This document shows, one piece after another, positions 52,509-62,932 of a DNA stretch of 64,000 bases (position 1 is the stretch's first letter; the number at the start of each line of letters is the position of its first letter). Both the position numbers and the translations under genes were made by a program. The stretch lies in the NCBI GenBank assembly GCA_019752045.1, contig JAIEMP010000009.1:62001-126000 (forward strand), written 5' to 3'. This stretch comes from Chitinophagaceae bacterium. GTDB taxonomy: Bacteria > Bacteroidota > Bacteroidia > Chitinophagales > Chitinophagaceae. The notes below the pieces were generated by a model. It did no database searches and was not told the DNA's origin. It saw nothing but the letters and a program-made list of their open reading frames with translations.

Positions 52509-53102
52509 TTACAAGTCAAGAAAGTTTTTGAGTATCATATCTCCCACCTTCGCACTTTTCTCCGTATGAAACTGCACACCATAAAAATTATCTTTCTGCA
52601 CCGCACTTGCATATTCCAATCCGTAGTTTGATGTTGCAATGCAATATGGATTCATTTCTGCATAATAACTATGTACATAATAGATATAACTATGTTCAGG
52701 TACATCTTTAAACAGATTGGTTTTCAAATTGTAAATATCATTCCAACCAACCTGCGGCACTTTGCCCCCATCCCCTAAAGGGGGGCGAAACAAACGAACC
52801 TTCGCAGGAATAATACCCAGGCATTCCGTATCACTTTCTTCGGAATGTTCAAACAGCAACTGCATACCCACACAAATACCCAACACAGGTTGCTTTAATT
52901 GTTTGATCACTACATCCAAACCTTTTTCCTTCAAACTATCCATAGCACTGCGTGCAGCACCTACACCGGGGAAGATCACTTTGTCTGCAGCAAACAATTC
53001 TTCTTTATCATCCGTCACTTTTGCATCAACACCTAAACGTTCCAATGCAAACAGCACCGACTGAATATTTCCGGCGTTGTATTTTACGATTGCTAAATTC
53101 AT
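52509..53102 (-). CDS. hisH: Imidazole glycerol phosphate synthase, glutaminase subunit
   Basis: Class I glutamine amidotransferase that feeds ammonia to HisF. 197 residues; the oxyanion motif FPGVGAARSAM, nucleophile Cys77 in LGICVGMQLL and the His/Glu of QFHTEKS are intact. Residues 107-114 (PPLGDGGK) interrupt the usual KVRLF-(K)VPQVGWN stretch and are encoded by a palindromic repeat. HisF is absent from the neighbourhood, although HisH works only with it. It follows trpA with a palindromic element between. Confidence 0.95.
   Translation of the reverse strand: MNLAIVKYNAGNIQSVLFALERLGVDAKVTDDKEELFAADKVIFPGVGAARSAMDSLKEKGLDVVIKQLKQPVLGICVGMQLLFEHSEESDTECLGIIPAKVRLFRPPLGDGGKVPQVGWNDIYNLKTNLFKDVPEHSYIYYVHSYYAEMNPYCIATSNYGLEYASAVQKDNFYGVQFHTEKSAKVGDMILKNFLDL
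52764..52786. repeat. CTCCCC-hairpin repeat inserted in frame in hisH
   Basis: Minus-strand form GCCCCCCTTTAGGGGATGGG. The hairpin CCCCT/AGGGG plus G-run matches the flippase copy. It encodes about eight residues (107-114) between beta strands of HisH, where the family has none. Confidence 0.75.
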
Positions 53103-53122
53103 AGTACCTTTCTTTGTCGCTC

Positions 53123-53218
53123 ATTGTCTGAACTGGGATAAGTGTGATGTTTGGGATTGATGAGATTGAAACTCATCTCAAATATCTCATCAATCCTATA
53201 AATCACAGTTCAGACAAT
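53123..53218. repeat. Solo GTCTGAAC palindromic element at the trpA stop codon
   Basis: 96 bases with perfect 13-base ends ATTGTCTGAACTG (53123-53135) and CAGTTCAGACAAT (53206-53218), and a perfect inner pair GGATTGATGAGAT (53154-53166) / ATCTCATCAATCC (53184-53196). The trpA stop TGA lies within the GTCTGAAC end. GGAT words recur about every 10 bases. It is the same family as the ends enclosing the GxxExxY gene at 60340-60843. Confidence 0.8.
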
Positions 53219-53977
53219 TGCTTTCAAAAATTTCTTTGTTGTTTCACTCACATCCGTTGCATTCTCCAATGCCTTGATATATGCCGTACCAATAATTGCT
53301 CCATTAGCATTTGCACAAGCCGCATCAAATGTTTGTTTGTCCTTAATACCGAAACCAACTAATACAGGATTCTTTAGCTGCATTGCTTTTAATTTTTGCA
53401 GATAAGCATTTACATCGGTCATGTTCTTATCACTGCCTGTTGTAGAAGAAGATGAAACCGCATATAAAAAGCCAGTGCTTAAACTGTCTAATTTTTTAAT
53501 CCGTTCATCACTTGTTTCCGGTGTAACAAGGAAAATAAAATCAAGACCGTATTGTTTGATGATTGCACCATACTCTGTTTCAAATTCATACTCCGGTAAA
53601 TCAGGTAAAATCAACCCATCCACACCAACATCCGCTGCCTCTTTACAAAAACGCTCAAAGCCATATTGCAACACCGGGTTCATATAACCCATTAAAATGA
53701 TGGGCACATTAATTTCTTTCCGTGCATCTTTTAATTGCGCAAACAATGTTTCAATCGTCATGGCATTTGCCAAAGCAACTAAACCACTGTTTTGTATCAC
53801 CGGACCATCCGCCAACGGATCACTATAAGGCATTCCTAACTCAATTAAGTCGGCACCATTTTCCTGTAATGCTTTCAGTACTTCCAATGTGCTGTTCAAC
53901 TTCGGATAGCCTGCAGTGCAGTACACGTTCAATACACGATTGCTTTTCTTTTGAAATAAATCTTTTATTCTGCTCAT
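53210..53977 (-). CDS. trpA: Tryptophan synthase alpha chain
   Basis: Cleaves indole-3-glycerol phosphate to indole, which is channelled to TrpB. About 255 residues; the catalytic Glu is in IELGMPYSDPLADGPVIQ and the Asp in LILPDLPEYE; VTPETSDERI and VGFGIKDK are also typical. I choose the ATG at 53977 (MSRIKDLF), as in other family members; the ATG at 53989 lies in the neighbouring repeat. The stop codon is part of the GTCTGAAC element (53210-53218). Confidence 0.96.
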   Translation of the reverse strand: MSRIKDLFQKKSNRVLNVYCTAGYPKLNSTLEVLKALQENGADLIELGMPYSDPLADGPVIQNSGLVALANAMTIETLFAQLKDARKEINVPIILMGYMNPVLQYGFERFCKEAADVGVDGLILPDLPEYEFETEYGAIIKQYGLDFIFLVTPETSDERIKKLDSLSTGFLYAVSSSSTTGSDKNMTDVNAYLQKLKAMQLKNPVLVGFGIKDKQTFDAACANANGAIIGTAYIKALENATDVSETTKKFLKAIV

Positions 53978-53985
53978 AAATTTTA

Positions 53986-54038
53986 CCACGGAGACACAGA
54001 GAGCACGGAGATACTCTGTGTCTCCGTGCCTCTGTGGT
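53986..54038. repeat. CCACGGAGACACAGAG palindromic repeat between trpB and trpA
   Basis: Perfect 15-base arms CACGGAGACACAGAG (53987-54001) and CTCTGTGTCTCCGTG (54014-54028) with a 12-base loop, plus an outer CCAC/GTGG. It fills the trpB-trpA gap. Related sequences lie at 57600-57640, 58451-58507, 59302-59340, 10194-10268 and 23345-23405. Confidence 0.75.
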
Positions 54039-54042
54039 TAAC

Positions 54043-55230
54043 TTATAAATGTTTCATGTATGTCGCCAGATCCTTATCCCCTCTTCCACTCAAACAAATA
54101 ATCACCTGATCGTCTTCTTTAAATTTATAATGATGTAATACCGCAAACGCATGCGCTGTTTCCAACGCCGGAATAATTCCTTCCAGCTTGCTCACTTCAA
54201 ACGCAGCCGCTAATGCTTCATCATCCGTTGCACTTAAAAATATTCCACGACCACTCTCAAATAAATTCGCATGCATCGGACCAATTCCGGGATAATCCAA
54301 ACCCGCCGAAATACTATGTGGCTCCACCACCTGTCCATCTGCAGTTTGCATCAATAAACTTTTACTGCCATGCAAAATGCCGGGCTTGCCGAGTTGTGTT
54401 GTAGCAGCACTCAATCCACTGTTCACACCATGTCCGGCAGCTTCTACAGCAATCAACTGTACACTCAATTCATCTAAGAAATGATAGAACGCACCGGCTG
54501 CATTACTGCCACCACCAACACATGCCATTACATGTGTTGGTAATTCTTTGCCTGTATGTTCTTTTAACTGCCAACGCATTTCTTCGCTGATCACACTCTG
54601 AAATTTCGCCACCATATCCGGATATGGGTGCGGACCAACCACGCTGCCGATGATATAATGTGTATCGTTGGGATGATTGATCCAGTCACGAATGGCTTCA
54701 TTCGTAGCATCCTTTAATGTTTTACTTCCGCTTGTTGCAGGAATCACTGTTGCACCCAGCATTTTCATACGAGCCACATTCGGTGCCTGGCGTTCAATAT
54801 CTTTTTCGCCCATGTACACAATGCACTCAACACCTTTCAACGCACACACCGTTGCAGTTGCCACACCATGTTGCCCCGCACCTGTTTCTGCAATAATGCG
54901 TTTTTTACCTAAACGTTCAGCCAGCAAAATTTGCCCTACCGTATTATTGATCTTATGTGCACCGGTATGACAAAGATCTTCCCGCTTCAACCAGATATTG
55001 GTGTTGAATTGCTTGCTCAACCGCTTTGCATAAAATAACGGTGTCGGACGACCGACATAATCTTTTAGCAATCCCCTGAACTCTTTTTGAAAAGCAGCAT
55101 CGCTCATAATATCGAGGTAACGGCTCTGGAGTTCCTCCACATTGCGATGCAGCATTTCCGGGATATACGCCCCACCGAATTTTCCGTAATAACCTTGCAA
55201 AGAAGGTTTTTGATATGTTGTTTCCATCAT
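54043..55230 (-). CDS. trpB: Tryptophan synthase beta chain
   Basis: PLP enzyme that condenses indole with serine. About 395 residues. The PLP lysine is in LCHTGAHKINNTVGQ; other signatures are YYGKFGGAYIPEML, GAGQHGVATAT, ACVGGGSNAAG and CLSGRGDKDL. The start at 55230 (MMETTYQKP) fits the family better than the ATG at 55266. The usual partner trpA follows. The gene immediately upstream is a foreign-looking insertion, so trpB depends on read-through of it. Confidence 0.96.
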   Translation of the reverse strand: MMETTYQKPSLQGYYGKFGGAYIPEMLHRNVEELQSRYLDIMSDAAFQKEFRGLLKDYVGRPTPLFYAKRLSKQFNTNIWLKREDLCHTGAHKINNTVGQILLAERLGKKRIIAETGAGQHGVATATVCALKGVECIVYMGEKDIERQAPNVARMKMLGATVIPATSGSKTLKDATNEAIRDWINHPNDTHYIIGSVVGPHPYPDMVAKFQSVISEEMRWQLKEHTGKELPTHVMACVGGGSNAAGAFYHFLDELSVQLIAVEAAGHGVNSGLSAATTQLGKPGILHGSKSLLMQTADGQVVEPHSISAGLDYPGIGPMHANLFESGRGIFLSATDDEALAAAFEVSKLEGIIPALETAHAFAVLHHYKFKEDDQVIICLSGRGDKDLATYMKHL

Positions 55231-55308
55231 TTTATATTTTTTATGATACCAGCTTTTGTTTTCCATGGCATCAACTGTTGCGTCGCAATCCTTTCATCGG
55301 TTGTACAC

Positions 55309-55980
55309 TTATTTAGCATTGAATTTTTGAATACGCTCATTTACTTCTTGAAGAACAGAATTAATATTTTTTATCTCATCTTCCAACCTTTGCAGTTTCT
55401 TATTCTTTACATTTTCAAAAGAATTAATAATTAACAAAGCTTCCTTATATTCATCTTCAAAAATTTCTTCTGCGACTGTGGCAATAACATCTACCAATTT
55501 AAATATGATTCCCAAATCAATTAAACTGGATGGAAAATTATAAACATGGAGTTTATTAGAAAGATGAACGCTTTCGAAATTGTTCTTCCCATCAATTCTA
55601 TAATTATGCGCCAAAACATTATTTCTAACTTTTCTTAAATCTTCCCATAAATTAATTTGATCTAACACAGGTTGAATAATCTGTTTATAGCTTGATATTT
55701 TCGAGTTAACACTCTCTTCGGTTGAATGATGCCTAAACAAATAATTATTAAGCTCATCAATTAAAGAAACAGTATCAATCAATACTTTTGATTGAGTTAA
55801 AAATCGAATAGTTTGTCCTTCCTCAAAAGTCACTTTTTCACTAATACTCATTCTATGTACATTAATCTTCCGCATAATGTTTCCAAAGAAAACCACATGA
55901 TATACGGATTCAATAAAATGTGAGTGTGTAACCACATCAGGCATTTTTTTCCATTTCTTCTTGGTGGATTTATCTACCAT
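55309..55980 (-). CDS. AT-rich hypothetical protein with HEPN-like RxxxxxH motif
   Basis: 223 residues, mostly helical, no signal peptide, C-terminal coiled coil (about 190-223). The stretch LRKVRNNVLAHNYRI has Arg119-x5-His125, resembling the Rx4-6H active site of HEPN RNases such as the AbiU2-like group; this is a motif-level guess. Three 60-base blocks I counted within the gene have about 26% G+C against roughly 40-48% in neighbouring trp genes, pointing to acquisition. It lies between trpB and the RAYT, in the same direction as the operon. I do not recognise it with confidence. Confidence 0.55.
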   Translation of the reverse strand: MVDKSTKKKWKKMPDVVTHSHFIESVYHVVFFGNIMRKINVHRMSISEKVTFEEGQTIRFLTQSKVLIDTVSLIDELNNYLFRHHSTEESVNSKISSYKQIIQPVLDQINLWEDLRKVRNNVLAHNYRIDGKNNFESVHLSNKLHVYNFPSSLIDLGIIFKLVDVIATVAEEIFEDEYKEALLIINSFENVKNKKLQRLEDEIKNINSVLQEVNERIQKFNAK

Positions 55981-56007
55981 AATCTTCTCTAAAAGTTTTA
56001 ACCCGCT

Positions 56008-56031
56008 CTGCGAAGTCTCCAGACTTCGCAG
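56008..56031. repeat. REP palindrome 1, left of the RAYT
   Basis: Arms CTGCGAAGTCT and AGACTTCGCAG, perfect 11-bp stem around CC. Its arms are identical to those of REP 6 (56749-56772) on the other side of the transposase gene, apart from the central bases. Confidence 0.85.
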
Positions 56032-56040
56032 TTTTATGCA

Positions 56041-56058
56041 AAAAGTCTCCCGACTTTT
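56041..56058. repeat. REP palindrome 2
   Basis: Arms AAAAGTC and GACTTTT around TCCC; shares the GTCtccnGAC core with REP 1. Confidence 0.7.
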
Positions 56059-56072
56059 CGTTCTTTTTAAAT

Positions 56073-56091
56073 ATCCTGTCAGAGACAGGAT
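56073..56091. repeat. REP palindrome 3
   Basis: Arms ATCCTGTC and GACAGGAT around AGA. The core GTCAGAGAC is the same as in REP 5 at 56722-56740. Confidence 0.75.
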
Positions 56092-56099
56092 GTATAGTA

Positions 56100-56123
56100 C
56101 TTCAAAGTCCGGAGACTTTGAAG
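56100..56123. repeat. REP palindrome 4
   Basis: Arms CTTCAAAGTC and GACTTTGAAG around CGGA; same architecture as REP 1 with different outer bases, as expected for a family diversified by stem compensation. Confidence 0.75.
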
Positions 56124-56131
56124 AGCAATAC

Positions 56132-56698
56132 TCAAATCAATTCAACATTCATAATCCCTCTCCCCAACATATAATTCGACGCACTGGAATACAAATAATC
56201 TTCGGGCTTTTCTACAATACCTGCTCTTACAGGATTGTAATGCGTATAATCCAGCTTTGTATCTGTAAAGGCTTTACTGAAACATTCTTCCGGATGGTTA
56301 TCGTTACTCCATATCTGCCATCCCTTATTATTCGGATTTTTTGTGCCATAATATTCAAACTGATGCTTCATCCAGCTACTCCTGCTTTCCATTTCACTTT
56401 CAATAACCGGTACCATTTGTTTATGTGTAAATTTCTTAAAGTCACGAATAATATCACTCAATGTTTTTATCTGTTTATCGTTTGCTCTTGCGATCATGTG
56501 CATGTGATTACTCATAATAACATAGGCGTTTAAAATCAACTGTTCGTTGTGCTGGGCAAAACGCAATGCATCTAAAACAATATCCCTGTACACCTGCCGT
56601 GAAAATAAATCAATCCATCCGCACACTGTGAACGTTAAGAAGTGTGTTGCAAACTGATCCCTGATTACATAGCCTTCTCTGAAATCTGTATCCTTCAT
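56132..56698 (-). CDS. REP-associated tyrosine transposase (RAYT, Y1_Tnp family)
   Basis: Single-strand DNA transposase-like protein of 188 residues. The HUH metal motif is HMH (65-67) in VIMSNHMHMIA and the catalytic tyrosine lies in LDYTHYNPVRAGIVEKPEDYLYSSA (Tyr151 or Tyr154), the signature of the TnpA_REP family. Family members bind and cut REP palindromes. Here six matching palindromes flank the gene within 140 bases on either side, so this is a complete RAYT-REP unit. It stands inside the trp operon between trpF2 and the HEPN-like gene, in the same direction. The gene appears intact. Confidence 0.93.
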   Translation of the reverse strand: MKDTDFREGYVIRDQFATHFLTFTVCGWIDLFSRQVYRDIVLDALRFAQHNEQLILNAYVIMSNHMHMIARANDKQIKTLSDIIRDFKKFTHKQMVPVIESEMESRSSWMKHQFEYYGTKNPNNKGWQIWSNDNHPEECFSKAFTDTKLDYTHYNPVRAGIVEKPEDYLYSSASNYMLGRGIMNVELI

Positions 56699-56721
56699 AC
56701 AAAAAAATTTCGTTTCATGAT

Positions 56722-56740
56722 GTCAAGTCAGAGACTTGAC
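56722..56740. repeat. REP palindrome 5, right of the RAYT
   Basis: Arms GTCAAGTC and GACTTGAC around AGA, 25 bases upstream of the RAYT start. Core identical to REP 3. Confidence 0.8.
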
Positions 56741-56748
56741 GCATATAA

Positions 56749-56772
56749 CTGCGAAGTCTGGAGACTTCGCAG
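56749..56772. repeat. REP palindrome 6
   Basis: Arms CTGCGAAGTCT and AGACTTCGCAG around GG; same arms as REP 1. It lies 20 bases beyond the trpF2 stop. Confidence 0.85.
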
Positions 56773-56791
56773 AGCAGCACCTTGCAAAGCC

Positions 56792-57487
56792 TTATCCTCT
56801 CAATTCACCCACAAACTTCTTCACCAATTCCATATCTTTTATGCTCGGCATTGTTTCAAACTTGCTGTTAATATCCACTGCAAACAAATCTTTAGCTACT
56901 TCTTCATTGGCAAAACTTTTGATCGCTGCTGCATCGGTTGGTTCAATACCACCACTTAAGAAAAAGGGTTTGCCAATATTCAATCCCTTCAGCATATTCC
57001 AGTTAAACTTCTTTCCCGTGCCGCCGTAACCTGCACCCATCGTATCAAACATGTACATATCCACCGCTTCCACATAATCCTTGATCATCCAGGGAATATT
57101 GTCATCATCCGTAATGCGGAATGCTTTGATCACAGAAATATAATCACTCACCTTTTCACAGAACTTCGGCGTTTCATCGCCATGCAACTGCACCATATCC
57201 AACCCAAAATTCTCAACATGGTTAATGATCTCATCATACGACGCATTTACAAATACACCTACCTTGTATACTTTCAACTTTGCTTTCTTTACCTGCACAC
57301 CCGTAAGATGTTTCAACACAAATCTTGGTGAACGATGATAAAAGATCATCCCGGCAAATTCAACACCCATCTCACCCAATTGTTGCATTTGTGCAAGATC
57401 CGTCATGCCGCAAACTTTAATACGAAACCCTCCCCGCTCCCTGAAGGGAGAGCCTGAAGCCTCGCTATGATTTTTTACATCACTCAT
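56792..57487 (-). CDS. trpF: Phosphoribosylanthranilate isomerase, second copy
   Basis: Amadori isomerase of tryptophan synthesis, 231 residues. The catalytic Cys26 is in RIKVCGMTDL and the catalytic Asp in YMFDTMGAGYGGTGKKFNW; VQLHGDETPEFC, FLSGGIEPTDA and AVDINSKFE complete the barrel signatures. Residues 1-22 (with SEASGSPFRERGG) are an extension over the family, encoded by a palindromic repeat at 57425-57462. The paralogue at 57779-58432 lies just upstream. Both copies keep the catalytic residues, so they may share the work or differ in substrate. Confidence 0.93.
   Translation of the reverse strand: MSDVKNHSEASGSPFRERGGFRIKVCGMTDLAQMQQLGEMGVEFAGMIFYHRSPRFVLKHLTGVQVKKAKLKVYKVGVFVNASYDEIINHVENFGLDMVQLHGDETPKFCEKVSDYISVIKAFRITDDDNIPWMIKDYVEAVDMYMFDTMGAGYGGTGKKFNWNMLKGLNIGKPFFLSGGIEPTDAAAIKSFANEEVAKDLFAVDINSKFETMPSIKDMELVKKFVGELRG
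57425..57462. repeat. CTCCCC-hairpin repeat at the 5' end of the second trpF
   Basis: Minus-strand form contains CTCTCCCTTCAGGGAGCGGG then GAGGG. It encodes the N-terminal extension (about residues 8-21) of this TrpF. It is the most divergent copy of the family but keeps hairpin and G-run. Confidence 0.65.
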
Positions 57488-57544
57488 ATTATACCAGTTT
57501 AAAAGTTAAACCGGCAAGCAACAATTGATCTATCTGTTTTATCC

Positions 57545-57566
57545 CGTCCGACGAGGGCGTCTGACG
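57545..57566. repeat. Copy 2 of the GTCAGACGCCCTCGTCGGAC repeat
   Basis: Same 20 bases as at 23426-23447, in the trpF1-trpF2 gap, in the same orientation as copy 3, 149 bases away. Confidence 0.75.
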
Positions 57567-57599
57567 TGGCGTGTTTTTTTCAATCACCCTCAACTTCAA

Positions 57600-57640
57600 T
57601 TCTTCGTGTTACTTTGTGCCTCCGTGTCTTTGTGGTTCAA
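57600..57640. repeat. Half copy of the TTCGTG..TTTGTGGTT repeat family
   Basis: Plus-strand words TTCGTG, CTTTGTGCC, TCCGTGTC and TTTGTGGTT in series, equal to one arm of the palindrome at 53986-54038. No opposing arm is present. Confidence 0.55.
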
Positions 57641-57693
57641 ATTATCCTCTCCAGCCACTTGTTAGAGTTTTCGGGAACATGTCAATTAAAACC

Positions 57694-57714
57694 CGTCCGA
57701 CGAGGGCGTCTGAC
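57694..57714. repeat. Copy 3 of the GTCAGACGCCCTCGTCGGAC repeat
   Basis: Same 20 bases as copies 1 and 2, preceded by CC as in copy 2. Confidence 0.75.
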
Positions 57715-57737
57715 ATCGTTTGCAAATTAACCTGCGC

Positions 57738-57779
57738 TTATCCCAACAATCCTGTCATCCCACAAATCACAGTTCAGAC
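57738..57779. repeat. Single arm of the GTCTGAAC element at the trpF1 stop codon
   Basis: On the minus strand the sequence runs AGTCTGAACTGTGATTTGTG then GGATGACAGGATTGTTGGGAT. The first base overlaps the TAG stop of the trpF gene at 57779. It is the third place where this family abuts a trp stop codon (also trpA and trpG). No matching second arm is seen downstream. Confidence 0.65.
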
Positions 57780-58432
57780 TATTTCATCCCCAACTTAAAC
57801 TGCAGCACTAAACTCATATCTTTTTCACCAGGTGCTTTCTCCACTTTGCTGTTAATATCCACACCATAAAAATCAGGATGCTTCAATGCTTTAATGCGTT
57901 TTACATCTTCAATTCCTATTCCACCGCTCAGGAAAAACGGTTTTTCAATTTTACTTTTTTCAATAATACTCCAGTCAAATTGTTTACCTGTACCGCCTTT
58001 GAGCGCTGGTTTTCCTCCCCCTTCGGGGGAGTTAGAGGGGGCCGTGTCAAACAAATAATAATCACAAGCCCCATCATAAGGTGCAACCAACGCATCAATA
58101 TCTTTTACCGATTCATCAATATGAAATACTTTGATCACTTCCACATCTTCATTCAAATTAGAACAAAACTCAGGTGTTTCTTCACCGTGAAGTTGCACAA
58201 CATCCAAACCATACTCTTCAATAGCATCCAGGATATCGCTGTACGATGGATTTACAAACACTCCAACTTTCTTCATGTCGTAATCAGCCTTCTTGATCTC
58301 TTTCTTATCAAGCTTCCCTTCCACATAACGGGGAGAGTTCTTGTCGAAAATAAATCCGACAAAATCAATATCCAATCCTTCTAACTGTTGTACCTGTTTC
58401 AATTGGGTAATACCGCAAACTTTAATATTCAT
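57779..58432 (-). CDS. trpF: Phosphoribosylanthranilate isomerase, first copy
   Basis: 217 residues. Catalytic Cys6 in NIKVCGITQL and Asp129 in YYLFDT; VVQLHGEETPEFC, GGTGKQFDW, FFLSGGIGIEDV and YGVDINSKVE are conserved. Residues about 131-146 (APSNSPEGGGKPALKG) expand the loop right after the catalytic Asp, and the DNA is a CTCCCC-hairpin repeat (58014-58043); the paralogue has only MGAGYGG there. Whether the enlarged loop still permits catalysis is unknown. It follows trpC by 73 bases. Confidence 0.94.
   Translation of the reverse strand: MNIKVCGITQLKQVQQLEGLDIDFVGFIFDKNSPRYVEGKLDKKEIKKADYDMKKVGVFVNPSYSDILDAIEEYGLDVVQLHGEETPEFCSNLNEDVEVIKVFHIDESVKDIDALVAPYDGACDYYLFDTAPSNSPEGGGKPALKGGTGKQFDWSIIEKSKIEKPFFLSGGIGIEDVKRIKALKHPDFYGVDINSKVEKAPGEKDMSLVLQFKLGMK
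58014..58043. repeat. CTCCCC-hairpin repeat inserted in frame at the catalytic loop of trpF1
   Basis: Plus-strand CTCCCCCTTCGGGGGAGTTA then GAGGGGG: a seven-base stem with TTC-type loop and the trailing G-run. It encodes about 15 residues after Asp129. Confidence 0.8.
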
Positions 58433-58450
58433 ATTGTATTGTATTGTTTT

Positions 58451-58507
58451 ACCACAAAGACGATAAGGCGGTAAAAAACTACTTTGCGCCTTCGTGCCTT
58501 TGCGGTT
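58451..58507. repeat. ACCACAAAG-type palindromic repeat between trpC and trpF1
   Basis: ACCACAAAGACG at the left, CGTGCCTTTGCGGT at the right, and an inner AAGGCG (58465-58470) / CGCCTT (58487-58492). An imperfect copy of the family at 53986-54038. Confidence 0.6.
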
Positions 58508-59291
58508 ATTTCTGATTTAACTTGTTTACAAATTCTTCAAATGCTTTTCCGGGATTCACTTCTTTCATAAAATTTTCACCAATCAAGAATCCACTGAACC
58601 CGTTTGCTTTAAACAATAATATATTTTCAACGGAACTGATGCCGCTCTCCGCTACTTTAATTTTATCTGCCGGAATTTGTTTCGCCATGCGCAAACTCCG
58701 TTCAATATCTACTTCAAATGTTTTGAGGTTACGATTGTTGATGCCAATAATTTCCGTTTCCTCACAAATATGCTCCAACTCTTCTTCTGCATGCAGTTCC
58801 AGCAACACTTCCAGCTCCAGCGATTTCGCAAAGGTCGCCAATCGTTTCACTTCAGCAGGCGTTAAACAGGCTGCGATGAGCAAAATTACATCAGCTCCCA
58901 TTGCCTTTGCTTCCGTGATCTGGTATTCATCAATAATGAAATCTTTTCTTAAAATAGGAATTTCATTTACTCTTGCTTTCAGCAGATCGTTTGCACTGCC
59001 ACCAAAGAACTGCTCATCAGTTAACACACTCAAACAAGACGCTCCGTTCATTGTATAAGCAGTTGTTACTTCCACCACATCAGCCCTACCATTGATCACT
59101 CCTTTTGATGGCGATTGACGTTTGAACTCTGCAATAATTCCTGTCTTTGTATCATCGAGCAGGAACTGTTTTAATGAAAGAACAGGTCTTGCATACAACG
59201 GTTGTTTCTGTAATTCAGCAACACTCGTTTTCTTCTTTCGCTCTTCTACTTCAATCCGTTTTTGTAATATAATCTTATCTAAAATATTCAT
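58506..59291 (-). CDS. trpC: Indole-3-glycerol phosphate synthase
   Basis: Closes the indole ring from CdRP. 261 residues, (beta-alpha)8 barrel. Signatures are IIAEFKRQSPSKG (catalytic Lys), LSVLTDEQFFGGS, ILRKDFIIDEYQ (Lys), IGINNRNLKTFEVD and VAESGISS. Length is normal and no repeat is inserted in the gene. It follows trpD by 51 bases containing a half repeat. Confidence 0.96.
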   Translation of the reverse strand: MNILDKIILQKRIEVEERKKKTSVAELQKQPLYARPVLSLKQFLLDDTKTGIIAEFKRQSPSKGVINGRADVVEVTTAYTMNGASCLSVLTDEQFFGGSANDLLKARVNEIPILRKDFIIDEYQITEAKAMGADVILLIAACLTPAEVKRLATFAKSLELEVLLELHAEEELEHICEETEIIGINNRNLKTFEVDIERSLRMAKQIPADKIKVAESGISSVENILLFKANGFSGFLIGENFMKEVNPGKAFEEFVNKLNQK

Positions 59292-59301
59292 GGTTTATCT
59301 C

Positions 59302-59340
59302 TTCGTGAATCTTTGTGTTCTTTGTGTCTTCGTGGTTCAA
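59302..59340. repeat. Half copy of the TTCGTG..TTCGTGGTT repeat between trpD and trpC
   Basis: Plus-strand TTCGTGAATCTTTGTGTTC followed by TTTGTGTCTTCGTGGTTC; one arm only. It fills the whole gap. Confidence 0.55.
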
Positions 59341-59342
59341 TA

Positions 59343-60338
59343 CTAATTATTTAATTCAATCAACTTTTTCAAACATCCATTTGCTCGTCCGCTTTCCAAA
59401 CTTGCAACGGCTGCAGCAAACGCATCATCATAGGTTTTATAAGCACCTGTGCAATACAAACCCATTGCTGCATTCGCCATCACAACTGCATTCTGTGCCC
59501 ATGTACCTTCGCCACTTAAAATTTTCGTAAAGATCTTTGCAGCTTCTTCAATACTATTACCACCATGTATATCGGTTTGCTGCACCGTCCGTTTGCCCAA
59601 CTGTTCCGGCGTCATAATAAACTCACCTTTGTTGGTGATCACTTTTGTATCGTTGGTCAAGGAGATTTCATCGTATCCATCCAGACTATGAATAATGGTA
59701 AACGCACCACCCGATTGTTGCAGCAAATAATTATACACTCTTGCCATCTCTAAACTATACACACCCACCAACTGATACGCCGGACTTGCCGGATTCACCA
59801 TTGGCCCCAGCATATTAAAAAAGGTACGCATACCGAGATTCTTACGGATAGGTCCAACTGTTTTTAATGCCGGATGAAACATCGGTGCATGCATGAAACA
59901 AATATTTGCTTCTTCCACTTCACGCTTCAACTGATCAACATTGTTCTTGAATTTATAACCCAGCTGTTCCATTACATTACTTGCACCACTAATAGTTGAA
60001 GCGCCATAGTTACCATGCTTGGCAACTTTTTGTCCGGCACCTGCAACAATGAAACAAGAAAGCGTTGAAATGTTGAACGTGTTTTTTCCATCACCACCTG
60101 TGCCAACAATGTCGAGCACCGAATGTCCATTTAAATCAACAGGTACACAGAGTTCAAGCAACGCATCACGAAAGCCTTGCAACTCTTCAATTGTAATGCT
60201 GCGCATGAGATACACCGTCATAAAAGCTGTGATCTCATGTTCGTTGTACATCGCTTTACCAATGTTCAATAACACTTCTTTCGCCTGCTGACGATTGAGA
60301 CTTTTATGTTCAAATAATAACTGTAAAATCTTTTTCAT
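59343..60338 (-). CDS. trpD: Anthranilate phosphoribosyltransferase
   Basis: Joins anthranilate and PRPP. 331 residues; PRPP-binding VGTGGDGKNTFNIST and KHGNYGASTISGASNVMEQLG, and the Mg-binding SLDGYDEISLT, are present. The start ATG at 60338 overlaps the stop of the inserted GxxExxY gene as ATGA, so trpD translation may now be coupled to that gene. Confidence 0.96.
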   Translation of the reverse strand: MKKILQLLFEHKSLNRQQAKEVLLNIGKAMYNEHEITAFMTVYLMRSITIEELQGFRDALLELCVPVDLNGHSVLDIVGTGGDGKNTFNISTLSCFIVAGAGQKVAKHGNYGASTISGASNVMEQLGYKFKNNVDQLKREVEEANICFMHAPMFHPALKTVGPIRKNLGMRTFFNMLGPMVNPASPAYQLVGVYSLEMARVYNYLLQQSGGAFTIIHSLDGYDEISLTNDTKVITNKGEFIMTPEQLGKRTVQQTDIHGGNSIEEAAKIFTKILSGEGTWAQNAVVMANAAMGLYCTGAYKTYDDAFAAAVASLESGRANGCLKKLIELNN

Positions 60339-60778
60339 TTGTCTGAACCGGGATTTTTAGGATTGGTTGGATGATTGGGATGAAGAAAAATTGCAGGATT
60401 ATATTTCTTGTTTGCAAACCGGTGAAATTCCATTCGTTTACTTCCGAAATTAATCAGCAGACCTACTTCAAGGTTATACGCTTCTAAATAATTCATCGCC
60501 TGAGCAAAATGAACATCTTCCAATTTTATGATTGCTTTCAATTCAACACTTATTTTATTGTCAATTAAGAAATCTACCCTTCTCGTTCCAATCTCCTGAT
60601 CGAGATAATAAATCGGCATTTCAAATTCACGGGCATAATCTAACGGAATTAATTTCAACTCCAGTTCTAACGCACGTTGGTAAATAACTTCCTGGAATCC
60701 ATTTCCAAGTGTGCCATGCACTTTAAAACAGGCGCCAATAATCTTCTCAGTTATATCAGCATATTTAAATTCCGGCAT
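60335..60778 (-). CDS. GxxExxY protein, PD-(D/E)XK nuclease-like
   Basis: 147 residues. The family motif is GFQEVIY (Gly27-Glu30-Tyr33), and the nuclease-like core is RRVDFLIDNKISVELK (Asp69, Glu79-x-Lys81). Function is unknown; the PD-(D/E)XK fold suggests DNA cleavage. The C-terminal tail HPNHPTNPKNPGSDK is translated from one arm of the enclosing palindrome, and the stop overlaps the trpD start. It is an insertion between trpG and trpD, which are normally adjacent. The gene is intact. Confidence 0.88.
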   Translation of the reverse strand: MPEFKYADITEKIIGACFKVHGTLGNGFQEVIYQRALELELKLIPLDYAREFEMPIYYLDQEIGTRRVDFLIDNKISVELKAIIKLEDVHFAQAMNYLEAYNLEVGLLINFGSKRMEFHRFANKKYNPAIFLHPNHPTNPKNPGSDK

Positions 60779-60843
60779 AACATCACTTTTAAAAGTTATT
60801 CCAATCCCACTAATCCATTCATCTCATTCATCCCAGTTCAGAC
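60340..60843. mobile_element. Putative GxxExxY-containing palindromic element
   Basis: About 500 bases bounded by GTCTGAAC (60341-60348) and its inverse GTTCAGAC (60836-60843). Both arms go on with GGAT-containing words about every 10-11 bases (left GGGAT, GGATT, GGATG, GGGAT; right, inverted, GGGAT, AGATG, GGATT, GGGATT). The only gene inside is the GxxExxY gene. The outer ends lie exactly at the trpG stop and next to the trpD start. The solo palindrome at 53123-53218 and the arm at 57738-57779 look like versions without a gene. That this is mobile is inference. Confidence 0.6.
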
Positions 60844-61428
60844 CAGCCAGTTCCTCAATATCTTTTCCCCCACCGGCGTCAACACACTTTCCGGATGAAA
60901 CTGCACTCCCTGCACATCATATGTTTTATGTTGCAGAGCCATAATCATTCCTGTTTCATCTTCTGCTGTTATTTCTAACTCAGCAGGAAAGCCTTCTTTA
61001 TTTACTACCCAACTATGGTAACGGCCAACTTCAATTGTTTCGGGCAGATCATTCAACACAGCATTTTGTTTTTTGGATCTTGGATTTTGAATATTGATCG
61101 GTGTTGCTATTCCATGAAATACACTTGACAAATTCGTCAACGTTCCCCCAAATGCTTCAGCAATTGCCTGGTGACCTAAACAAACACCCAGAATAGATTT
61201 TGTTGCTGCATATTCTTTGATCAATGGCAACAACAATCCAGCTTCTACAGGAATACCCGGACCGGGTGATAAAATAATTTTATCATAGTCCTTCACCTTC
61301 TCCAATGGAATCTGGTCGTTGCGATACACATCTACTTTTATATGTGTGATCTTCTCAACCAAATGGACAAGATTATACGTGAACGAGTCATAATTATCAA
61401 AAACCAATATGCGACCTGAAAAACTCAT
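60838..61428 (-). CDS. trpG: Anthranilate synthase glutaminase component
   Basis: Provides ammonia to TrpE. 196 residues; LVFDNYDSFTYNLVH at the start, SPGPGIP, nucleophile Cys in LGVCLGHQAIAEAFGG and VQFHPESVLTP with catalytic His and Glu. The last residues LV and the TGA stop are in the GTCTGAAC element. It follows trpE by 43 bases. Confidence 0.96.
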   Translation of the reverse strand: MSFSGRILVFDNYDSFTYNLVHLVEKITHIKVDVYRNDQIPLEKVKDYDKIILSPGPGIPVEAGLLLPLIKEYAATKSILGVCLGHQAIAEAFGGTLTNLSSVFHGIATPINIQNPRSKKQNAVLNDLPETIEVGRYHSWVVNKEGFPAELEITAEDETGMIMALQHKTYDVQGVQFHPESVLTPVGEKILRNWLV

Positions 61429-61449
61429 TTTTATTTTTTTAGGGTGTTA

Positions 61450-61481
61450 AAAAGTCTCCCTTTAGGGAGATTTAGAGGGTT
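61450..61481. repeat. CTCCC-hairpin repeat at the trpE stop codon
   Basis: Plus-strand AAAGTCTCCCTTTAGGGAGA then TTTAGAGGG. The TTA of TTTAGAGGG, read on the minus strand, is the TAA stop of trpE, so the repeat supplies the end of the gene. Nearly identical to the copy at 62591-62627. Confidence 0.8.
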
Positions 61482-62932
61482 TCCGCTCTTTCAATTGCCT
61501 TCTTCAACGCTCCCAATTTATGATTCACTTCCTGTAATTCACTTTCAGGATTGCTTGCTGCTACTACACCTGCACCGGCTTGATAAACCAATGTATTTTG
61601 TCGACTCAAAAATGTACGGATCATAATAGCATGATTACAACTTCCATCAAAACCCATAAAGCCAATGCCACCGCCATAATAACTTCTTGCGGTTGATTCG
61701 TAAGCATCAATCAACTGCATGGCTTTGATTTTTGGCGCACCACTCAACGTACCTGCAGGAAATGTTTTTGCCAGCAATTCAAACGGGTTGGAACCGGGAC
61801 GAACTTTCGCCACCACTTCACTCACCAAATGAATCACATGACTGTAGTACTGTACTTGTTTGTAATGCGCCACACTTACATCATCACACACACGACTTAA
61901 ATCATTTCTTGCTAAATCAACCAACATCACATGCTCGGCATTTTCTTTTACATCTTTCAGCAAACGTTCGGCTTCCTGTTGATCAACCTCATCATCGCCT
62001 GTACGTTTGAATGTTCCTGCAATAGGATGCACAACTGCTTTGCCCCGTCCGAACGGATCATCCGGGCGGGCATTTTGAATGATGATCTGCGATTCAGGTG
62101 ATGAACCCATCAACCTATAATCGCCGTAATCAAAAAAGAATAAATAAGGAGAAGGATTAATGCTGCGCAATGCACGGTACACATTAAATTCATCGCCATT
62201 GAACGATTGCTGAAATCGTCTGCTCAACACAATCTGAAACACATCACCTCTGTGGCAACTGGCAATCCCTTTCTTTACCATTTCCACATATTCTTCGTTG
62301 GTTACATTGCTACTTTCTTCACCTTTTACTGCAAACGGATAAACGGGAACATCTTTACTGCGGATCAAACTTTCAACAACGGCTACATCACTTTCAATGC
62401 CGGCGATCTTATTCTCACAAATGAACAATTCATCTTTATGATGATTGATCGCAATCACGTATTGATACAAGCGATACCGCATTAACGGAATAGCAGCCGG
62501 ATCTTTTCGTTCTGCATTCAGTTTGATGGTATCAAAGAATTGTACCGCATCATATGTAGTGTAACCATAAAGACCTTGTGCAAACTTAGAAGCCCCCTCT
62601 AAATCTCCCCCGGAGGGAGAGACTTTTGAAACCTCAAACCTGTTTAAAAAATCAAACAACTGCTGCGGCACTTCCGTTGGCTGTTTGATGGCAATACGTT
62701 CCGGTTTTTGTCCGGGTAACTTAAACTCAATGCTGGTAGTAGAAGTAATCTCCATCCCCGCAATGGCATTGATAGCAATAAACGACCAGCTGTTTTCTGC
62801 TGCATGATGATCTGTACTTTCCAGCAGTATCGTATCCCGGAACCGATCTCTCAACCGCAGATAAATTCCAACAGGCGTAAACACATCTGCCAGCATTTTT
62901 TTACAAGTCGTTTCTATGTTTATTTTCTTCAT
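61472..62932 (-). CDS. trpE: Anthranilate synthase component I
   Basis: Makes anthranilate from chorismate, 486 residues. The feedback site motif LLES near residue 36, DVFQIVLSRRF, GSSPE, HPIAGT-(F)-KRTG, LVDLARND and TFPAGTLSGAPKIKAM are intact, so Trp inhibition is expected. Residues about 102-116 (SKVSPSGGDLEGASK) interrupt the non-catalytic N-terminal domain and are encoded by a CTCCCC-hairpin repeat; the C-terminal ETL and stop come from another copy. First structural gene after the trpL attenuator, with about 140 bases between terminator and ATG. Confidence 0.96.
   Translation of the reverse strand: MKKINIETTCKKMLADVFTPVGIYLRLRDRFRDTILLESTDHHAAENSWSFIAINAIAGMEITSTTSIEFKLPGQKPERIAIKQPTEVPQQLFDFLNRFEVSKVSPSGGDLEGASKFAQGLYGYTTYDAVQFFDTIKLNAERKDPAAIPLMRYRLYQYVIAINHHKDELFICENKIAGIESDVAVVESLIRSKDVPVYPFAVKGEESSNVTNEEYVEMVKKGIASCHRGDVFQIVLSRRFQQSFNGDEFNVYRALRSINPSPYLFFFDYGDYRLMGSSPESQIIIQNARPDDPFGRGKAVVHPIAGTFKRTGDDEVDQQEAERLLKDVKENAEHVMLVDLARNDLSRVCDDVSVAHYKQVQYYSHVIHLVSEVVAKVRPGSNPFELLAKTFPAGTLSGAPKIKAMQLIDAYESTARSYYGGGIGFMGFDGSCNHAIMIRTFLSRQNTLVYQAGAGVVAASNPESELQEVNHKLGALKKAIERAETL
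62591..62627. repeat. CTCCC-hairpin repeat inserted in frame in trpE
   Basis: Minus-strand AAGTCTCTCCCTCCGGGGGA then GATTTAGAGGGGGC, nearly the same as the copy at the end of trpE. It encodes KVSPSGGDLEGA. Confidence 0.85.

Follow-up and report, generated by a model that had tools for sequence, protein, structure and literature searches.

GxxExxY nuclease genes and inverted word arrays suggest a RAYT/REP-like family of palindromic elements

A nuclease gene within palindrome arms in a trp operon

The window, which is the whole stretch of 64,000 nucleotides analysed here, belongs to a genome of 4.16 Mb in 29 contigs and holds a trp operon with Pfam matches for nine genes. Between trpG and trpD lies a GxxExxY gene enclosed by inverted arms with GTCTGAAC at their ends. 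The preliminary description had made this claim, and the family matches (TIGR04256, PF13366) and arm coordinates confirm it. The features of the locus are as follows.

60335-60778, minus strand: GxxExxY gene, 147 amino acids, PD-(D/E)XK nuclease family, between trpG and trpD
60341-60381, plus strand: trpD-side arm, GTCTGAAC followed by GAT words at offsets 11, 20, 29 and 38
60804-60843, minus strand: trpG-side arm, the inverse of the trpD-side arm
53126-53215: GTCTGAAC palindrome without a gene, lying between trpA and a glutamine amidotransferase gene
57738-57779, minus strand: single GTCTGAAC arm, at the end of a trpF-like gene (57779-58432)
60341-60348 with 60836-60843, 53126-53133 with 53208-53215, and 57772-57779: the copies of GTCTGAAC
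53985-54038: gene-less palindrome of CACAGAG flavour, clean, between trpA and trpB
57602-57636, minus strand: single array of CACAAAG/CACGGAG flavour
58451-58506: gene-less palindrome of CRCNAAG flavour, one side degenerate, at the junction of the trpF-like gene and trpC; extent judged by eye
59301-59336, minus strand: single array of CACAAAG flavour, between trpC and trpD

The stop codon of the GxxExxY gene overlaps the start of trpD (ATGA), and the last residues of the protein are indeed encoded by an arm, the trpD-side one at 60341-60381, as had been proposed. Read inward from GTCTGAAC, the inner words of both arms are GAT at offsets 11, 20, 28-29 and 37-38; the steps are thus 9, 8-9 and 9 bases, and the period of 10-11 bases given at first has to be corrected. 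The solo copies that had been placed at 53123-53218 and 57738-57779 do carry GTCTGAAC there. The first of them supplies the stop codon of trpA, beside a glutamine amidotransferase gene that we judge by its position to be hisH. The trpG stop codon is likewise the TGA of GTC-TGA in the trpG-side arm. Besides the trpG and trpA sites of the window, a GTC-TGA at a palindrome end serves as the stop codon of the upstream reading frame at three further loci (L293, L317 and L319).

GTCTGAAC has five copies in the window, where 1.18 would be expected, and none of 100 shuffles reaches five; CACAGAG-like word pairs number 12, against one in the reversed window. Between 52900 and 61500 no Rfam family reaches its gathering score: the best score of the gene-less palindrome is 26 bits, for a gathering score of 80.

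The same operon holds a RAYT gene (56132-56698, minus strand; NF047646, 88 bits) with palindromes of its own, of CTGCGAAGTCTCCAGACTTCGCAG type, whose inverted 45-nt arms span 56005-56049 and 56731-56775. Two unlike palindrome systems, that of the RAYT and that of the GxxExxY gene, coexist within 5 kb of the window. A role of this RAYT as mover of the GxxExxY palindromes is not supported, because its own palindromes differ. A reading frame of 223 codons without a Pfam match (55309-55980, minus strand) lies between trpB and the RAYT. The operon also has two phosphoribosylanthranilate isomerase (trpF-like) genes near each other (56792-57487 and 57779-58432), and between them a perfect 23-bp direct repeat, CCCGTCCGACGAGGGCGTCTGAC, at 57543-57565 and 57692-57714.

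The window protein is a plain member of the GxxExxY/PDDEXK_3 family: it matches TIGR04256 (E 2.9e-37; 127.6 bits, cut-off 35) and PF13366 (E 5.5e-36), and no other family, known transposase families and the IS200/IS605-related tyrosine transposases included. Asp69, Glu79 and Lys81, described earlier as intact, are present; an alignment of 51 sequences shows no variation at D69 and E79 and almost none at K81. The AlphaFold2 model, with a mean pLDDT of 85.8, is a compact, confident domain plus a tail of low confidence, part of which the arm encodes. Foldseek matches it best to four chains of SSO0001, a Cas4 (top E 1.5e-3, probability 1.00), and more weakly to AddAB, lambda exonuclease, splicing endonucleases and other nucleases; none of these matches falls below E 0.001, and a sequence search for a relative of solved structure found none up to E 1. 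The conserved D69, E79, K81 and Q93-Y97 fit the RecB/Cas4 layout (D, E-x-K, Q-xxx-Y). Altogether, the GxxExxY protein is probably a PD-(D/E)XK nuclease with a RecB/Cas4-like fold, as judged from its motifs and the predicted structure. It resembles in fold and motif layout the RecB/Cas4/lambda-exonuclease branch, from which it differs as a single domain of about 120 residues that here lies outside any CRISPR or recombination operon.

Arms and arrays across loci and genomes

We scored inverted arms around each gene, with an inverted-repeat score of at least 24 as threshold. The source genome has nine GxxExxY genes, eight of which reach it, mostly with flavours other than GTCTGAAC; the ninth (L008) yields no scoring pair, and words resembling an arm lie upstream of it. 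The threshold is also reached by 28 of the 30 best-scoring loci in the phylum, by 21 of 27 further ones in the genus and by 55 of 74 from other genomes, belonging to many phyla; the remaining 19 of these 74 show no arms at threshold, and five of the 55 (L158, L159, L167, L171, L192) appear by eye to be other palindromes that lack the words. Shuffled flanks score as high in less than 1% of cases, and none of 29 trpG control loci does. When arms are swapped between GxxExxY elements, 10% of the pairs reach the threshold in the source genome, 20% in the phylum, 9% in the genus and 21% among the others, in line with a shared grammar. In the wider sample, where 77 of 80 loci could be placed in 17 phyla, arms at threshold occur in 12 phyla, as read from titles and scores; the sampled loci of Fidelibacterota, Chlorobiota, Cyanobacteriota, Hydrogenedentota and one archaeon stay below it.

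The commonest arm consists of an outer box near TKAACC, which at the trp copy reads GTC-TGAACC, and two to four CRCNRAG words 8-11 bp apart. At least two chained words are found within 180 nt at 115 of 141 GxxExxY loci, at one of 29 trpG loci and at none of 46 loci of another gene family, the four-helix-bundle genes described below. Reversed flanks give 27 of 141 for GxxExxY, perhaps because some arrays look alike backwards. At the ssb site and at L131 the palindrome lies beside the gene instead of around it.

The proposed link of gene and repeat is supported and becomes wider: most GxxExxY genes examined have arms. GTCTGAAC as the single defining repeat is rejected: it is one minor flavour, used among the nine genes of the source genome by the window copy alone.

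CACAGAG-like arrays follow the gene as well. We searched 296 genomes of the phylum, 152 of which have a TIGR04256 match, with a strict pattern of three words, each match being a single arm. It finds 441 matches in 80 genomes (the reversed pattern finds none in the 296): 437 in the 152 genomes with GxxExxY and four in the 144 without. When the comparison is confined to the 232 genomes of taxonomic families that include both kinds, arrays occur in 58 of 116 with the gene against 3 of 116 without it (CMH p 4e-6). Half of the genomes with the gene, 76 of 152, have no strict array. The source genome has nine strict matches, none of them at a GxxExxY gene, and arrays can greatly outnumber genes (28 to 1 in G221, 27 to 2 in G286). 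On comparative sequence grounds, gene and arrays belong together, and gene-less arrays of CACAGAG-like flavours appear almost confined to genomes with the gene.

For GTCTGAAC, the refuting condition named in the preliminary description, abundant solo palindromes in genomes without a GxxExxY gene, gives a mixed outcome. Its arrays give 75 matches in 26 genomes, again with none for the reversed pattern in 296 genomes: 17 gene-bearing genomes hold 58 of the matches, and nine genomes that lack the gene hold the other 17. As a share of genomes this is 17 of 152 against 9 of 144 (Fisher p 0.15). The nine genomes without TIGR04256 are G135, G174, G186, G222, G246, G250, G285, G321 and G332, and eight of them belong to one family, f32. 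It is possible that GTCTGAAC arrays have another carrier gene in these genomes. In a genome that does have GxxExxY, an unrelated reading frame of 182 codons lies inside GTCTGAAC arms (L310).

A second gene family shows a similar architecture. The TIGR02436 four-helix-bundle genes, 16 in the source genome and present in 223 of the 296 genomes, lie between inverted arms at 14 of these 16 loci and at 17 of 30 in the phylum, which leaves room for arms coming from machinery common to both families. The words of GxxExxY are found at none of the 46 four-helix-bundle loci, however, and the best arm period is 7 or 8 in 28 of 30 armed loci, against 8-11 in 95 of 110 armed GxxExxY loci. This period count predates the exact placing of the gene in four GxxExxY loci cut by a contig end (L073, L232, L248, L249). 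Three strict-array matches in total occur in the 83 genomes that have four-helix-bundle genes but no GxxExxY match. Array number correlates at 0.60 with the number of GxxExxY genes and at 0.48 with that of four-helix-bundle genes.

Spacing of the arms, the protein tree and the sites of insertion

Elements with uneven spacing and at least three words per arm bear on how the arms are read. In 15 of 16 the inward spacing is identical on both arms (for example 10-11-10), and steps are equal at a rate of 0.97, where shuffling them within the element gives 0.51. Spacing strings swapped between such elements agree in 51%, because few spacing classes exist. Both arms carry words in 73 of 150 elements; over all of these, 95% of 119 steps agree, where independent draws would give 30%. 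Word identity behaves differently: the variable letters match between arms at 0.800 in order and at 0.808 out of order, with a permutation p of 0.57 that was computed before a small row correction. Read in the sense RNA, the differences between arms would give 40 G-U and 40 A-C pairs.

Mirrored spacing with unmatched words means that words and distances are kept, not base pairs. This favours protein binding to the two arms side by side over a selected hairpin, although hairpin formation as such would be compatible, and suggests that the words are protein-binding sites. An inverted duplication could also have left the two arms with mirrored distances. Equal distances combined with unmatched words lead to a sharp, testable prediction for end recognition.

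Arms vary with the protein that they enclose. The tree comprises 139 proteins, 11 of 150 rows being left out: eight with stops or fragments (L076, L129, L147, L158, L236, L244, L254, L255) and three further ones; L073 entered it without its first seven residues. Arm labels change 16 times on the tree against 29.1 when shuffled, and none of 200 shuffles is as low. The GTCTGAAC label changes once: a single branch (SH-aLRT 91) separates all seven of its proteins from the rest, and these seven are the four trp-insertion copies, L250 and L251 of the same genus, and L315 of another family of the phylum. Beside the gene of a Persicobacter homologue, 58% identical, lies a palindrome built of GATT words that lacks the GTCTGAAC end. 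The spacing class changes 25 times against 48.5 shuffled; once rows are limited to at most 70% identity, it changes 18 times against 26.3. At 60% or below the signal is weak, with 9 of 300 shuffles as low for spacing and 18 of 300 for labels, and the word letters give none (9 changes, 8.6 shuffled). Protein pairs at 70-90% identity share the first spacing in 91% of cases, those at 40-60% in 28-29%. Arm flavour and spacing therefore track the protein clade, with a weak or absent signal among rows at most 60% identical.

Sites in relatives come in occupied, empty, decayed and single-arm versions. The trpG-trpD site without the element, which the preliminary description had suggested looking for, was found: the element is present in 4 of 23 genomes, the source included (G000, G013 and G002 of the genus and G020 of another genus), and most of the others examined have a gap of a few dozen bases. 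At the metH junction, among 14 genomes, seven bear the gene, one has a single array, five are empty and one has another insert; the gene-bearing elements are of at least two unlike arm types, and two of the empty sites have a flank that is about 90% identical. The different insert at this junction (L282, in G009) implies that the site may be a hot spot. At the ssb site, 13 of 14 genomes were inspected: six have the gene, with the whole palindrome upstream of it in five, three a remnant of its 3' part, two neither, and two are uninformative. By eye, no consistent target duplication is seen, the metH site included, and the compared relatives show no excision product and no recent insertion or jump. 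A search of phage records with the homologue L065 gave no match.

GxxExxY matches number 1 to 10 per genome within the genus, broken ones counted. The trp copy itself evolves slowly: its dN/dS is 0.04-0.09 in five of six pairs and undefined in one, against 0.06-0.10 for trpG, with dS saturated for the G020 pairs. A trp insertion common to four genomes of two genera and under strong purifying selection also fits a useful resident gene.

A proposed partnership and its alternatives

On balance we favour the view that the element is a small PD-(D/E)XK nuclease gene together with its cognate inverted word arrays, a widespread pair in a partnership of RAYT/REP type. The comparisons suggest a family of palindromes that move or maintain themselves and that apparently has no earlier description, and we infer that the arrays are moved by the enzyme, which would bind the words and cut the ends. 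The arrays would offer about one word per helical turn; several protein units would sit next to one another on the words of the two arms, with the spacing as a ruler, and the nuclease would cut at the outer box (near TKAACC) or at an extruded hairpin. Repair or replication would then place copies of the palindrome, either gene-bearing or gene-less, at intergenic positions near gene ends, which palindromes may favour. Labour would be split as proposed for RAYT and REP, by an unrelated enzyme. If true, this would assign a substrate and a function to the common GxxExxY family, account for a class of palindromes between genes and provide a PD-(D/E)XK counterpart to the RAYT/REP partnership.

The likeness to RAYT/REP can be followed point by point. 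The RAYT study (PMC2817692) names as criteria a gene between inverted repeats, coevolution, and a correlation of gene presence with repeat number. A small gene flanked by two inverted palindromes is found at most, not all, GxxExxY loci; gene-less palindromes occur in the same genomes, protein and repeat coevolve, and the presence of GxxExxY correlates with the number of CACAGAG-like arrays. The parallel drawn from the window alone is thus supported and extended by the arms, the co-occurrence of CACAGAG-like arrays, the agreement with the protein tree and the element-free sites. There are differences too: the enzyme is a PD-(D/E)XK protein, whereas that of RAYT is an IS200/IS605-related tyrosine transposase; unlike in REPs, each arm is a series of words spaced by about one helical turn; and rayt genes are described as fast evolving (PMC2817692), whereas the trp copy evolves as slowly as trpG. 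By analogy, we take the GxxExxY element to work like RAYT/REP without belonging to it.

Insertion sequences differ in that the GxxExxY protein matches no known transposase family, but occupied and unoccupied versions of the trpG-trpD, metH and ssb sites are shared with transposable elements. TAACTGA heptamers are also short words in intergenic arrays, which the available text of PMC4679880 presents as direct repeats with one inverted case, mentioning no linked nuclease. The literature matches listed, a set to which subscription papers and preprints do not belong, hold no description of GxxExxY arms or inverted arrays; in one of the papers found under the family names, GxxExxY occurs once, for a domain beside a reverse transcriptase.

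An unlikely alternative to the nuclease-array partnership makes the gene a passenger: other machinery, be it replication slippage, a RAYT or an unseen enzyme, would make and move the arrays, with GxxExxY and four-helix-bundle genes as cargo. Two unrelated protein families between inverted periodic arms, nine genomes that have GTCTGAAC arrays without the gene and a RAYT nearby in the window all speak for it. The two families nonetheless differ in grammar (no GxxExxY words at 46 four-helix loci; periods of 7-8 against 8-11), the arm type tracks the GxxExxY tree, and the RAYT has different palindromes of its own.

We would put at the same low level a resident function, in which a defence or repair nuclease has the arrays as autoregulatory or self-protecting sites that spread by ordinary duplication. 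Purifying selection on the trp copy, the cognate arrays and the RecB/Cas4-like fold would all suit such a nuclease. It accounts poorly for the range of match numbers inside a single genus, from 1 to 10 per genome, and for arrays in far excess of genes in G221 and G286.

A little less probable again is a role in RNA, where the arms would pair in the transcript and RNase III would excise the unit or insulate it within the operon mRNA. Intervening sequences of 23S rRNA are known to have an ORF between inverted arms. A study of the Coxiella intervening sequence with its S23 ORF, which calls it selfish, describes a related layout excised by RNase III (PMC4990558). The inverted arms of the window do lie inside an operon, and mirrored spacing taken alone is compatible with pairing. 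A hairpin selected for pairing is not supported, however: comparing the words of the two arms in their order gives no better match than comparing them out of order, and would-be G-U differences are as many as A-C ones. The S23/TIGR02436 sequences share with our element the small ORF between inverted arms and differ from it in that the GxxExxY unit is intergenic (in the trp operon) and not in 23S rRNA, has an unrelated PF13366 protein and different words, and shows no sign of selection on pairing in its arms.

That the palindromes are ordinary intergenic terminators, or chance ones beside an unrelated gene, is very improbable: solo copies do sit at gene ends, but the controls contradict it, with no arms at 29 trpG loci, no match of the reversed patterns in 296 genomes and no Rfam family at gathering score in 52900-61500.

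A broader form of the nuclease-array partnership seems to us an even bet. Here a superfamily of palindromic mobile elements would extend over a dozen or more phyla: single-domain RecB/Cas4-like nucleases would read mirrored arrays in phase with the helix as ends and copy them by way of a hairpin or cruciform, yielding many gene-less palindromes between genes, and the four-helix-bundle genes would form a parallel system with arrays of 7-8 bp. A second, unrelated protein family with an array grammar of its own suggests that the architecture is general. At the four-helix-bundle loci (L016-L031 and L092-L121), inverted arms with a 7-8-bp period come in many flavours.
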